Part shown: piece after piece, positions 898 to 40,621 of the stretch
Position numbering within the stretch: the first letter of the stretch is position 1
How the letters are laid out: every line of letters starts with the position of its first letter
Source of the DNA: Methylomonas albis
Lineage (GTDB): Bacteria; Pseudomonadota; Gammaproteobacteria; Methylococcales; Methylomonadaceae
Reading direction: 5' to 3'
Assembly (NCBI RefSeq): GCF_014850955.1
Contig: NZ_JACXSS010000001.1
Location: 4,402,001 to 4,466,000 of the forward strand
DNA: 64,000 nt
The notes under the pieces: model-generated
Database searches by the model: none
What the model saw: only the letters and a program-made list of their open reading frames with translations
Told to the model about the DNA's origin: nothing
Program-made: the position numbers and the translations under genes

Positions 898-1359
898 TGC
901 ATACGCCGTTTGTTTTTGGGTGTGCGGATAGGCCAGATAGCCTGAGTAGGTATATGTTTCATGGAACCAACGTCAAAACCAGCCTCTGCAACAGCACCAT
1001 TGCCATAACCCATACAAAAACAATACTTTGAATCGCTCTAAACAAAGCCCTGTGATATATTCCCAACACATTCACCTGCCCCTATGGGCAATATAGTCTC
1101 AGCAAAACACAGGGTATAGTGCAGGAAACCTTGAAGCAGTTCCGATAAAGCTAACACCCTCAGCCGCCCCGGAACTATTTCAAGGTTTACCAACATCCCG
1201 CGGGATGCAGTCAAGCGCAAATGCATGGAAACTCGGCCATATGGGCGATCAAGCACTTGCAATGTATACGGTAGCTGGAAGCTTGGAGGATTGGCGGTTT
1301 AATCCTTTTCCGACCGGGTTTAGAAGAGCCTAGTCTCAGCAATAAAGATCGAGAACTTT
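898..1359. other. Gene-free interval
   Basis: There is no convincing coding region between the membrane protein and the lytic transglycosylase. The short reverse-strand frame near 1038-1262 has no ribosome site or recognisable composition. I see no tRNA fold and no strong hairpin. Confidence 0.5.
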
Positions 1360-8497: not shown

Positions 8498-8756
8498 GTG
8501 TCGCTATCGCGACGGATTTTAATGCCGGTTCCCGCACCGGCGGGCGGCCTTCTTTCTTTTGCGTCGCCAAAAGAAAGAAGGCAAAGAAAAGGCGACCCGG
8601 ACGCCGCGTTGATCCTCCGCGCCTCGCTTTTGACCGGAGTTGCCGAAAGGCTTCCAGCCCCTTCGGCAACGCGATGCGTCCCTGCATCGCCCCTGCGGGC
8701 TGTTCCGTTCAAAAGCTCCGGTGCTCGGCGCGGCATACGGAACAAAACCGTCCCGA
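8498..8756 (+). repeat. Structured dispersed repeat, copy A
   Basis: This is the most divergent of four copies. Stems seen: P1 GCCGGT/ACCGGC (8524-8541, loop TCCCGC); P2 CCTTCTTTCTTTT/AAAAGAAAGAAGG (8548-8581); loop GTCGCC (8563-8568) complementary to GGCGAC (8591-8596); P4 GCTTTTGA/TCAAAAGC (8626-8633, 8709-8716); P5 GTTGCCGA/TCGGCAAC (8639-8670); P6 GCGATGC/GCATCGC (8671-8690, loop GTCCCT). Most stems differ in sequence from copy B but still pair. Short ORFs across it on both strands are probably by-products. Confidence 0.85.
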
Positions 8757-37611: not shown

Positions 37612-37879
37612 GTGTCGCTATCGCGAGGATGGTTTTAAATGTCGGGTCTCGGCCCGACAGCCGAAATACTTTCTTTTGCGTGGCCAAAAGAAAGTATTCA
37701 AAGAAAAGGCCACCCGGTATTCCGCCTTAATCCTGCGCGTCTTGCTTTTGGCGAGGGTTTTCGGAAGGGCCATCCCTGGCCCTCCGAAAACGAGCGGCAT
37801 CCCTGCCGCTCCCCTATCGGGCTAGTCTCGCCAAAAGCTGCGATGCTCGGGGCGGAATAACGGGACTAAAACGTCCCGG
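37612..37879 (+). repeat. Structured dispersed repeat, copy B (reference copy)
   Basis: Stems: P1 GTCGGG/CCCGAC (37641-37658, loop TCTCGG); P2 AATACTTTCTTTT/AAAAGAAAGTATT (37665-37698); loop GTGGCC (37680-37685) pairing with GGCCAC (37708-37713) as a pseudoknot; P4 GCTTTTGGCGA/TCGCCAAAAGC (37744-37754, 37828-37838); P5 GTTTTCGGA/TCCGAAAAC (37757-37791) with inner GGGCC/GGCCC; P6 GAGCGGC/GCCGCTC (37792-37811, loop ATCCCT); P7 CGGGAC/GTCCCG (37861-37877). It faces copy C across the two AT-rich membrane genes. Confidence 0.9.
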
Positions 37880-37911: not shown

Positions 37912-37992
37912 GTAGCCTCGATGCAGTGTAACGAAATCGAGGGTTGGATAGCTTCGATCATCCTCGATTCCACTGCGTTTCATCGAGGCTAC
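37912..37992. repeat. 81-bp palindromic element with GTAGCCTCGATG ends
   Basis: GTAGCCTCGATG (37912-37923) is the exact reverse complement of CATCGAGGCTAC (37981-37992). Internal arms AATCGAGG and CCTCGATT also pair. It is MITE-like in form, with no coding capacity. Its right end provides the TAG stop of the next gene. Confidence 0.75.
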
Positions 37993-38951
37993 TTGCTTTT
38001 GACCCATGCTCCGACAAAAATGGCAATAACCCCTAATATTAAGATCACGCTGTAAAGCATATTAGTTCTGGAAATTTCTTGACGCCGTTTTTCAAACTCC
38101 CCCGATGTTTCTGTCATCAATTCCTGTAATCGTTTCATTCTTTGTTGCGATGTTTGTATTGAAGATATTTCATCTACTACTTTTCTTGAAATTGTTTGTT
38201 CGATAGTCCGTGCTCCGGCATAGTTTGCATAACCTTTTGCAACGCCGTCAACTATTCTGGCATCTTGCTCCGACAGCGGCAAAGGGAGTGATAATCCACC
38301 GGGCTCAAGTTTATGAAATACTCGCAACCAGCGGGGAAGCCGTGCCAGATAAATCGACTTATTTATGGTTGCGACCCGCAAAGAGAATACCTGGTTTCCT
38401 TTAATTACTGCGGCTTGGAGAAAAACATCAGTTACCTCGCTCCAAGGTATGAAGCCGAAGCGAAAATGCTTCACGCCACGTAAATCAAGGCGAATCACCG
38501 GACGGCCGATCAACCGTTTTCCCGATGCAAACGATGCGATACCAAATAATATTCCGCCAGATAGAAAAGCGGCCCCTAACAACCACTCAGTTGACGGTAA
38601 ATCGGAAAGTAAATAAACACCTAAATAGATAGACCCTAAACTCAAGATAAATATAAATACCAAGAATCCGAATTGGGACGGTTTTGCATAAAATTCAACG
38701 GGGTGTTTGTAATTCAGCGCAACCCTGACCCTTGCATCAACACGTTGCCGTAATTCAAATTCTTCCTTTTGAATGCGTCTTTTATCCCATCGAAATAGCA
38801 GTATAAAAGCACCAATAATCAATATAGCAAGAATGCCGTAGTACATACTGGCACTAGTATTCCCTTCGTCCATTGATTTTGAGAAGAAGGACAGGATAAC
38901 CATTCCTGCCAATGTCGCAAGAATTACTAGAAATTGAATAATTGATTTCAT
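37989..38951 (-). CDS. AT-rich polytopic membrane protein, possibly STM3941-like
   Basis: I infer about five membrane segments: near residues 4-23, 34-56, 95-118, 121-143, and a C-terminal one at about 295-317. A soluble middle domain holds RPVIRLDLRGVKHFRFGFIP and WSEVTDVFL, which recalls the STM3941 family, but I am not sure. A coiled coil precedes the last helix (SSIQTSQQRMKRLQELM). I start at Met 38951 (MKSIIQFL), which begins the first helix. Composition is AT-rich compared with hup genes. The stop codon falls in the palindromic element. Confidence 0.6.
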   Translation of the reverse strand: MKSIIQFLVILATLAGMVILSFFSKSMDEGNTSASMYYGILAILIIGAFILLFRWDKRRIQKEEFELRQRVDARVRVALNYKHPVEFYAKPSQFGFLVFIFILSLGSIYLGVYLLSDLPSTEWLLGAAFLSGGILFGIASFASGKRLIGRPVIRLDLRGVKHFRFGFIPWSEVTDVFLQAAVIKGNQVFSLRVATINKSIYLARLPRWLRVFHKLEPGGLSLPLPLSEQDARIVDGVAKGYANYAGARTIEQTISRKVVDEISSIQTSQQRMKRLQELMTETSGEFEKRRQEISRTNMLYSVILILGVIAIFVGAWVKSK

Positions 38952-39011
38952 GGCCTTTGTATTAGGCAGTTTTCCGCCTGGGCACGAAAAACATATGCCC
39001 ACCCAACATTG

Positions 39012-39539
39012 CTACGTTGAATAACTATTGCGACAATTGTTACTGAAACGCACAATAAAATAAAAAAACACAGCGACGCAAAAAAACATAGGCCAAACAT
39101 AAATATAAGATTCCTTAATTTTGATATATTTATTTCGTTGATCTAAATAGTTAATTACTAGCTTTCCATCCACCTCAAGCTGTAGAAGCCGATTTTCAGT
39201 AAAAAATCCATTTATTCTTGCTTCATACCACCATGCCTTCGCATTTTTACCTTTAAATGGATTTTTATCTTCAGTAGCAAAACAATCCTTCGTCCCAACA
39301 CTTGTTATCCAGCAGTTCAATTCTATTGTTTTACCCTTATTGCCAAGTATTAATGAACTGCCTCTGCTTAGTGGAGTAAGGCTAAAATTTATAGAGCCAT
39401 GACCAGTTTCTAATTGATTAAACTCTGGAATTTTTAATAAAAAAACATCCAGATCGGCTAACGACAATATAAATGTTAATAAAACAAAGAATAAAGTAGT
39501 TCTAGCTAAATTTGATTTATTATTCATAATGCCTGACAA
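39012..39539 (-). CDS. AT-rich hypothetical membrane-anchored protein
   Basis: Not recognised. It has one hydrophobic segment near the N-terminus (TTLFFVLLTFILSL) and one at the C-terminus (IYVWPMFFCVAVFFYFIV), with a beta-rich exoplasmic domain of about 110 residues between them (NCWITSVGTKDCFATEDKNP). Met5 (MNNKSN) is an alternative start. It is 60 bp upstream of the preceding AT-rich gene, and the two are probably one transferred unit. Confidence 0.55.
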   Translation of the reverse strand: MSGIMNNKSNLARTTLFFVLLTFILSLADLDVFLLKIPEFNQLETGHGSINFSLTPLSRGSSLILGNKGKTIELNCWITSVGTKDCFATEDKNPFKGKNAKAWWYEARINGFFTENRLLQLEVDGKLVINYLDQRNKYIKIKESYIYVWPMFFCVAVFFYFIVRFSNNCRNSYST

Positions 39540-39624: not shown

Positions 39625-39674
39625 ACAATTACAAACCTAGCGTTCAAAATAATCTTATAACCTTTCGTCTGGCG

Positions 39675-39936
39675 ACGGGGTTGTTCCCGTTATTCCGCCC
39701 CGAGCATCGCAGCTTTTGGCGAGATCAGCCCGCAGGGGAGCGGCAGGGATGCCGCTCGTTTTCGGAGGGCCAGGGATGGCCCTTCCGAAAACCCTCGCCA
39801 AAAGCGAGACGCGCAGGATTAAGGCGGAATACCGGGTGGCCTTTTCTTTGAATACTTTCTTTTGGCCACGCAAAAGAAAGTATTTCGGCTGTCGGGCCGA
39901 GACCCGACTTCAAAACAACCGTCGCGACAGCGACAC
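39675..39936 (-). repeat. Structured dispersed repeat, copy C
   Basis: Nearly identical to copy B through P1-P6 but on the opposite strand. P7 differs yet still pairs (ACGGG/CCCGT around AACAA-type loop). Together with copy B it forms an inverted pair around 37.9-39.6 kb. Confidence 0.88.
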
Positions 39937-39975: not shown

Positions 39976-40251
39976 TCAAGCATCAAATTTAATCTTCCCA
40001 TTCGCATACTGATGTATTAACGAACTAATCAAAACCTGATACGGCAATCCCTGGCTAACCGACTGCGCCTTCAAACGTTCGAGATCGCTTTCCAACAACC
40101 GAATACTGACCGTTTTCTTTTTGCCGATTTGATCACGGGCAATCTGGCTGTACCGGCTTTTTTCATCGTCCAGATTATTGATACTAATAGCCGCACCGCC
40201 TTCGACATAATCGACAACCTCTTGTTCTTCAACCGTTAGTTCAGTGGTCAT
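39976..40251 (-). CDS. Solitary CopG/RHH-type antitoxin-like protein
   Basis: A 91-residue protein with a C-terminal ribbon-helix-helix: KTVSIRLLESDLERLKAQSV, then GLPYQVLISSLIHQYANGKI. It resembles the CopG/BrnA antitoxins. No partner toxin gene is adjacent on either side; both flanks are structured repeats. It may be an orphan regulator left by loss of a toxin. Confidence 0.75.
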   Translation of the reverse strand: MTTELTVEEQEVVDYVEGGAAISINNLDDEKSRYSQIARDQIGKKKTVSIRLLESDLERLKAQSVSQGLPYQVLISSLIHQYANGKIKFDA

Positions 40252-40372
40252 GATGAGCCTCTTTAAAATATTGCTTGTGATATTTACGGCTTGGAATGAT
40301 ATTTTTCAAATCTCTAGAACTCAGCCTACCAAAAAAAATCCGTTGCACACAATAGCCTTTGGAGTGGCGCCT

Positions 40373-40621
40373 TCCCGTATGCCGCGCCGAGCACCGGAGC
40401 TTTTGAACGGATCAGCCCGCTAGGGGCGCCGCAGGGATGCGGCGCGTTGCCGAAGGGGCAGGAAGCCCCTTTTCGGCAACCCCGTTCAAAAGCGAGGAGC
40501 GCAGGGAATAAGCGGCGTCCGGGTGGCCTTTTCTTTGAATACTTTCTTTTGGCCACGCAAAAGAAAGTATTTCGGCTGTCGGGCCGAGACCCGACATCAA
40601 AATAAATCGCGATAGCGACAC
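40373..40621 (-). repeat. Structured dispersed repeat, copy D
   Basis: P1, P2 and the pseudoknot match copy B. The second half differs in sequence but pairs: P4 GCTTTTGAACGG/CCGTTCAAAAGC, P5 GTTGCCGA/TCGGCAAC, P6 GCGCCGC/GCGGCGC with loop ATCCCT (read on the minus strand; 40426-40445). The P7 end is missing, so it may be truncated. Confidence 0.87.

Follow-up and report, generated by a model that had tools for sequence, protein, structure and literature searches.

Introduction

The question raised by this locus is what a repeat of about 265 nt, whose stems change sequence from copy to copy while their pairing is kept, is doing in the genome of Methylomonas albis and what relation it bears to the genes beside it. 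The stretch of DNA analysed (the window) is 64,000 nucleotides long. An earlier sequence-only reading had reported four copies with one shared architecture and had taken them for a selected RNA or single-stranded DNA fold, not a protein. Here, one copy of about 265 nt is called an arm, and the orientation used in that reading is called the reference strand. In our view, the arms are paired structured RNAs that frame exchangeable cargo genes and bind CsrA where CsrA is present, a reading to which we assign a probability of roughly one half.

Arms in the window

All four copies were found when the window was read directly and aligned, and they share the architecture claimed for them. A strict hairpin-plus-linker detector gives exactly four sites in the window, which are the four arms. 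As a copy number, four holds for the window and is too low for the genome: a search of the 5.4-Mb genome with a covariance model (R1) built from 37 of its full-length copies returned at least 65 matches at E ≤ 0.01, at least 50 of which score no less than 114 bits, with 150 of 1665 candidates scored. A blast search with copy D gave at least 46 matches (40 of 67 candidates scored).

Arm A (8498–8754; R1 match of 250.9 bits) is a single copy, with the element on the plus strand and the RNA probably on the minus strand; the strict detector places its pseudoknot and putative triple-helix core, consisting of the P2 hairpin and a linker, at 8547–8590 (minus). Arm B (37612–37876; 273.7 bits), the left arm of the B/C pair, likewise has the element on the plus strand and the RNA probably on the minus strand, and its core of P2 hairpin and linker lies at 37665–37707 (minus), as indicated by the strict detector and by covariation. 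Its P5 hairpin (37757–37791, minus; loop AGGGAU on the RNA strand) and P6 hairpin (37792–37811, minus; CAGGGAUG at the loop on the RNA strand) are each identified from the sequence and a covarying helix. Judged from wobble pairs and loops, the RNA of arm B would point away from the cargo. Arm C (39674–39936; 288.7 bits), the right arm of the pair, has the element on the minus strand and the RNA probably on the plus strand, with its core at 39842–39884 (plus, strict detector). Arm D (40361–40621; 282.7 bits) is a third arm of the locus, oriented like C with its RNA probably on the plus strand, and its core was detected in the same way at 40529–40571 (plus).

Two genes lie between B and C, neither with a Pfam family above the cut-off. 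Cargo gene 1 (37989–39002, minus; 337 aa) resembles a membrane protein by eye and has relatives at the same locus in genomes G338 and G342, and a relative of cargo gene 2 (39012–39539, minus; 175 aa) is the cargo of another pair (L038) in the same genome. The small gene between C and D (39976–40251, minus; 91 aa) is similar to CopG/ribbon-helix-helix antitoxins, below the Pfam cut-offs, and its relative in G333 and G344 adjoins a second small gene that is toxin-like by eye. We also note a separate palindromic repeat (GTAGCCTCGATG...CATCGAGGCTAC) just inside arm B, at 37912–37992 of the window, with a similar sequence within the L286 unit. Palindromes of the GTAG-tagged type GTGGGCAC are recurrent beside arms as well.

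Covariation and non-coding character

The compensated stem changes described between copies A and B are visible by eye: GCCGGT/ACCGGC becomes GTCGGG/CCCGAC in P1, CCTTC/GAAGG becomes AATAC/GTATT in the outer part of P2, and GTCGCC/GGCGAC becomes GTGGCC/GGCCAC in the pseudoknot, while the P5 and P6 stems change around loops with an invariant TCC. Folded as RNA, copy D has a z score of −6.5, or −7.0 when its complement is folded, and none of 200 shuffles is equally stable. The RNAalifold consensus has 76 pairs, of which 31 show at least one double compensatory change. Our alignment A2 holds 37 full-length copies from this genome, and in it an 81-pair structure that includes the pseudoknot places standard pairs in 97.2% of cells (shuffles, 87.5), shows two-sided changes in 34 of the 81 pairs (shuffles, 21.0) and has a covariation score of 0.253 (shuffles, 0.082). 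None of 500 shuffles matches the observed value in any of these three measures. For further pair types the observed value is no higher than in the shuffles, being equalled in 467 of the 500. When partners were slid by one to three columns, 38–47% of cells were paired and five to nine pairs had two-sided changes. The pseudoknot helix itself is 81.5% paired in these copies and three of its five pairs are doubly changed; its outermost pair forms in just six of 36 copies. Loss of covariation in a larger alignment had been named as what would tell against the fold, and in the 37 copies the covariation persists.

A protein-coding origin is rejected on the analysis of frames and lengths. No reading frame is free of stops in more than 13 of the 37 copies, and the distance separating P1 from the core's end, taken modulo 3, equals 0 in 13 of them, 1 in 13 and 2 in 11. 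The view that these are ordinary or coding repeats with incidental palindromes can point to the open frames present over the arms. Against it stand the covariation of pairs, the covariation of a third strand described below and the lack of frame conservation, and we regard it as very improbable. Together with the conservation of the fold in distant genomes, the absence of a conserved frame and the covariation bear out the earlier claim of a selected single-strand fold that is not a protein. The repeats form an RNA-like structured family with a covarying fold.

The sequence-only reading had recognized no named RNA family, and no Rfam family reaches its gathering score over any arm in the window, in nine loci of the family f190 discussed below or in 20 other arm-bearing sources; the three Rfam matches found all fall outside arms. 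HEARO/omega RNA, group II introns and other known Rfam families were rejected on these grounds as the identity of the arms.

Pseudoknot and third strand

On the probable RNA strand, one strand of stem 1 is followed by a pyrimidine linker and then by a hairpin that carries the stem-1 partner in its loop. This is the order of an H-type pseudoknot, with the linker oriented parallel to the hairpin's purine strand. The hairpin was recognized in 225 of 245 arms, and among these the linker covaries with the P2 hairpin: 119 of 136 distinct combinations match perfectly, and when linkers were shuffled 1000 times the average was 62.4 and no shuffle exceeded 77. Linker TTTCTTTT occurs with hairpin AAAGAAAA and TTTTCTTT with AAAAGAAA, and the rare hairpin variants AAAGAGAA, AAAGGAA and AAGAAGAA are also matched by their linkers (TTTCTCTT, TTTCCTT and TTCTTCTT, respectively). 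U-A-U and C-G-C triples predict linker–hairpin covariation of the kind observed. Since the linker covaries with the hairpin as a third strand would, the arm RNA is likely to contain a triple-helix pseudoknot.

The same covariation is what a DNA triplex formed by a mirror repeat would predict, and this mirror-repeat character would also fit a different reading, considered further below, in which the arms act as folded single-stranded DNA. The pseudoknot between loop and linker and the strand bias described in the next section favour RNA over a DNA triplex.

Telomerase RNA and the SAM-II riboswitch contain H-type pseudoknots in which a pyrimidine loop forms major-groove triples. The arms resemble them at the level of the fold, in having an H-type pseudoknot with a pyrimidine strand suited to triples; what sets them apart is that stem and third strand vary together throughout a family of bacterial repeats.

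RNA strand and GGA loops

Wobble pairs and loops both suggest that the RNA corresponds to the complement of the reference strand. Among isolated non-Watson–Crick stem pairs in 192 distinct arms, A-C/C-A occurs 86 times and G-T/T-G 26 times on the reference strand, which on the complementary strand become 86 G-U and 26 A-C pairs. Because the copies are related, we take this bias as support and not as proof. Alignments fitted to the model tell otherwise, with more G-T than A-C pairs in three helix groups (P0, P1 and the core) and the reverse in P2 alone; such an alignment leans towards the strand that was modelled. The RNA strand is probably the opposite of the reference strand.

The loops differ strongly between the strands. 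In the 37 arms of this genome GGA lies in the apical loop of 79 of 189 hairpins on the probable RNA strand and of two of 192 on the reference strand; a single simple shuffle of each arm gives six of 120. The corresponding counts elsewhere are 110 of 278 (53 arms of the genus), 69 of 184 (40 arms of the class) and 77 of 331 (77 arms of named taxa). The motif CARGGAUG is present in 27 of the 37 arms on the probable RNA strand and in none on the other. Plain arms of this genome (37) have two or three GGA hairpins; modules inserted in arms add hairpins that again have GGA loops, so that of 14 chosen arms with such modules 12 have four to six and the other two have three and two. GGA loops on this strand are a supported feature of the arms. 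In the named-taxa arms the stricter A-N-GGA loop shows a small excess over shuffles (41 of 331 hairpins versus 14 of 241) and is absent from 46 of these 77 arms.

GGA in a hairpin loop is the feature of published CsrA sites, for which one account gives the SELEX consensus RUACARGGAUGU and an NMR loop ANGGAN (PMC7652899). The loop motif of the arms fits both the consensus and the ANGGAN hexaloop as stated there, while a point against CsrA as the ligand is that the P5 and P6 stems are longer than most of the SELEX hairpins. A weak match to RsmW also lies on the probable RNA strand (30.8 bits, E = 0.0017), below the gathering score of 52.

The csrA gene (PF02599) is present in the genome analysed here. 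Its frequency is no higher in genomes with arms (57 of 66) than in armless ones (13 of 14). A second arm-bearing set, in which G167 and G284 appear again, has it in 12 of 20 genomes. The number of loops does differ. Excluding arms shorter than 150 nt (that of G563 among them) and the csrA-less genome G524, two or more GGA loops occur in 31 of 45 arms from 33 csrA-bearing genomes and in none of 14 arms from seven csrA-less genomes of 100% estimated completeness, all of which have zero or one; six of these seven genomes belong to one family. Counted by hand per genome, at a threshold chosen post hoc, the figures are 24 of 33 and none of seven. If a single loop is taken as the threshold for a genome, 25 of 33 and three of seven genomes pass it, and the association does not reach significance (p = 0.17). 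Some arms lack GGA loops altogether in csrA-bearing genomes (11 of 45), and in four incomplete assemblies with no csrA match five of six arms have two or more.

In arms outside Methylomonas at four loci (L147, L215, L140 and L216), GGA hairpins are by eye replaced by a hairpin with a TGTCTGAG-like sequence and CGAGTT at its flanks, which may be a different internal-loop motif. We also note a TwoAYGGAY motif of Rfam, from the same clan as RsmW (CL00106), in Aeromonas salmonicida (L141, 7902–7971), about 3.5 kb from an arm.

Distribution

A covariance-model search of this genome and its relatives, which had been proposed along with the fold, found the family to be widespread. Counting the genome analysed here, R1 matches occur in 28 of 61 sampled genomes of its family and in 69 of 274 of its class (61 of 222 genera). 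In a phylum-wide draw 31 of 249 genomes are positive at E ≤ 1e-5, and ten of these belong to a family outside the class, f190, with one or two weak matches each. The hairpin–linker core is recognizable by eye in nine f190 loci, in one of which the strict detector is positive at the matched place. These f190 relatives are low-copy (L320–L328). One lies, by eye, between two similar ParE-like genes (L320), and another is near an RNase P RNA (L328), where a second hairpin–linker at 1246–1275 (plus) may be a convergent partner.

A search with the core pattern gave at least 119 stretches. Among the 80 matches listed are Methylomonas, Methylobacter, Crenothrix, Polaromonas, Acidovorax, Thiobacillus, Dechloromonas, Azonexus, Silvimonas, Luteimonas, Lysobacter, Dyella, Rheinheimera, Aeromonas salmonicida, Halopseudomonas and two Desulfobacterota-type assemblies. 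With copy B as the query, blastn gave no match in plasmid or phage collections, and carriage of the arms by either was set aside for this reason.

Inverted pairs

The earlier account of the copies stands as regards the fold; it overlooked their inverted pairing, the third strand, the probable RNA strand on the opposite side and the exchangeable genes. The arms are arranged as inverted pairs. Using 55 of the 65 genomic matches, with antisense, partial or weak rows dropped, neighbours within 3 kb of each other are convergent in 16 cases, divergent in none, and in the same direction in five (one plus/plus and four minus/minus). The same treatment of 114 of 134 rows from named taxa (80 loci listed) gives 27 convergent, two divergent, two plus/plus and one minus/minus neighbours. 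In the sole two divergent cases (L196 and L149) the matches are 54 bp apart or overlapping. In a convergent pair the 5' end on the reference strand, GTGTCGC in this genome, is outermost, and these outer ends are constant in this genome.

The spacer between paired arms ranges overall from −9 to 3909 bp and often contains genes. In a set of 62 pairs, drawn mainly from Methylomonas plus eight genomes of other genera, 52 gaps measure 532–1760 bp and most contain genes, and in Methylomonas most pairs frame genes. Among the named convergent pairs, 16 of 27 have at most 127 bp between the arms, mostly outside Methylomonas, and several spacers outside Methylomonas are shorter than 130 bp with no promoter evident by eye.

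Triple-helix elements at 3' ends stabilize RNAs in other systems. The arms might be 3'-end RNA elements (terminators, insulators or stabilizers) that close transcripts from both sides and shield neighbours from foreign genes. The downstream arm would indeed be a trailer of the cargo transcript on the probable RNA strand, and units are seldom found between divergent genes in the 62-pair set (three of 59, compared with 18 convergent and 38 in the same direction, using crude ORF calls). The named set shows no such placement bias (seven divergent and one convergent of 23), no U-tract is seen by eye past the terminal hairpin on this strand, and the arms greatly exceed a terminator in elaboration, with the GGA loops and the pseudoknot left unexplained. 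We consider this reading unlikely.

Turnover of the cargo

The cargo turns over while the arms stay. The 62 pairs contain 77 ORFs in 65 clusters, of which 56 are singletons. Some have Pfam names, which include, among the 25 of 36 families listed, KAP NTPase, FRG, GIY-YIG, AAA_15/AAA_21, ankyrin, DUF1152, GGDEF, methyltransferase and two transposases, and PADLOC models match some of the cargo ATPases (25 of 137 families listed). We make no claim of defence enrichment, as Pfam and PADLOC matched just some of the 65 representatives.

Comparison of the window locus between two anchor genes yielded 19 intervals with both anchors out of 21 (20 fetched loci and the window). At least one clear arm is present in 15 of the 19; G341 has weak fragments, and G343, G347 and G360 have none, the G360 interval being merely 302 bp long. 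The main cargo gene is common to the genome analysed here (G000), G338 and G342, and another is common to G350 and G354. The remaining cargo differs among the species, save for a RAYT-like gene in G348, G359 and G366 and in the armless G343 and G347. For four two-arm loci, 14 intervals (708–4204 bp) were recovered from further genomes, and each of them has arms at its two sides. Among all fetched units, 14 of 170 unit pairs with matching outer flanks share at least 150 bp of cargo DNA, a comparison in which one large group fuses several loci through common flanking DNA; in the L050 group six of ten pairs share about 160 bp. One DUF1152 gene lies between arms in both G000 and G011 (87% identity), and there neither the loci nor the arms are related.

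Similarity is higher among orthologous than among non-orthologous arms at the outer end (identities of 0.56 versus 0.31 and 0.86 versus 0.72), at P6 (0.90 versus 0.79) and at the inner edge (0.65 versus 0.45). Over P1–P2 this locus-specific identity is lost (0.86 versus 0.85 and 0.83 versus 0.83), so that sequence is homogenized between loci in the middle of the arm. At one orthologous site G355 has another type of pseudoknot and hairpin, swapped as a unit. Exchange by crossover solely in the outer arm was rejected because identity returns in the inner half and no single crossover site stands out. Simple crossing-over in arms is also insufficient for all of the turnover, since the inner flanks are locus-specific and the arms around the DUF1152 genes are unrelated.

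Comparison with mobile elements and known RNAs

Dispersed copies, and inverted pairs whose outer ends in this genome are constant, would also be expected if the arms were folded single-stranded DNA, forming the ends of a non-autonomous mobile unit recognized by a recombinase or an HUH-type transposase such as RAYT, in the manner of attC sites or REPINs, with the cargo as passenger. A single-arm site (G000:4530564) is consistent with this, in that the arm is absent from G344, where 29 bp replace 322, and the G342 interval of 166 bp is armless. At another single-arm locus (L031) the flank spacing is similar in six genomes. RAYT genes also lie between arms at several units, and all three tested exceed the cut-off of the RAYT model (NCBIfam NF047646; L039, 4072–4614; L033, 5669–6205; L129, 3140–3685). 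As PF01797 (Y1_Tnp) had missed two of these three proteins at its cut-off, the presence test was repeated with the RAYT model.

RAYT matches occur in 46 of 55 arm-bearing genomes, with 25 in the genome analysed here, and in eight of 14 armless genomes; Y1_Tnp is likewise found in 46 of the 55, and among the 14 armless genomes six lack RAYT and five lack Y1_Tnp. RAYT and Y1_Tnp are thus each absent from nine of 55 arm-bearing genomes, and RAYT was rejected as a required mobilizer on this count. Both are absent from seven of the 55, all of 99–100% estimated completeness, so neither is required. Further points against a mobile DNA unit are that no constant target duplication is seen by eye in the flanks and that the G-U-like pairs and GGA loops are strand-specific, which recognition of a DNA hairpin would not need. 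We regard this reading as possible, with the odds clearly against it.

REPINs are described as inverted doublets of REPs (PMC3116915). The arms resemble them as inverted dispersed doublets that also occur singly, and in the presence of RAYT genes in most arm-bearing genomes, sometimes between arms. Unlike REPINs, the arms are about ten times longer, have a complex covarying fold and often enclose a gene-bearing spacer; two short REPs around a short hairpin-forming spacer, the arrangement that defines a REPIN, are not what is seen here. With integron attC cassettes and mobile insertion cassettes the units have in common a turnover of mostly unfamiliar genes flanked by structured repeats. They differ in having two inverted 265-nt arms per cassette, scattered loci and strand-specific RNA-like features, and their mostly convergent neighbours (see above) do not form the head-to-tail array of an integron.

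Among RNAs, the closest likeness is to the CsrB/RsmZ/RsmW type (CL00106), with which the arms share several GGA-loop hairpins on one strand, modular gain of hairpins and the weak RsmW match. Unlike these RNAs, the arms occur in dozens and inverted around other genes, and they conserve a pseudoknot with a probable triple helix; they score below the Rfam threshold, and some genomes keep the core without GGA loops. A search of the literature by topic, which covered few subscription papers or preprints, gave no description of these repeats. Searches with six core strings gave matches that by their titles do not concern them, one of which is a synthetic promoter (PMC6146998). The family is new relative to the Rfam release and the literature searched.

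Proposed model and significance

In the model that we prefer, each arm would encode a structured RNA of about 265 nt, read from the cargo side outwards and against the reference strand, with a long stem bearing two A-N-GGA-like hairpins, an H-type pseudoknot and two small terminal hairpins. The pyrimidine linker would occupy the hairpin's major groove as its third strand, forming U-A-U and C-G-C triples. As the two arms are inverted, any transcript across a unit, in either direction, would end with one sense arm. In gammaproteobacteria with CsrA the GGA hairpins would probably bind CsrA/RsmA, and the units would then be dispersed CsrA-binding RNAs attached to the gene between the arms. The space between the arms would be an exchange site, its cargo replaced presumably by recombination aided by the many similar arms. 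Transcription, CsrA binding, the route of cargo exchange and the first arrival of the arms are steps that we infer from sequence. In its fullest form, in which an RNA with a triple-helix pseudoknot, doubly encoded in inverted orientation, frames cargo, helps to keep or swap it and doubles as a CsrA ligand across beta- and gammaproteobacteria, the proposal is doubtful.

The analysis would add a widespread structured RNA family, present in a quarter of the species sampled in its class and missing from the Rfam release searched. The family would offer a triple-helix pseudoknot encoded by a bacterial repeat that can be tested through compensatory changes in three strands. The arms would also provide a search handle with which the contents of the exchange sites, mostly unfamiliar genes with some defence-like ATPases and toxin–antitoxin-like genes, could be catalogued. 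If CsrA does bind the arms, global regulation in these bacteria would be tied to their load of repeats.
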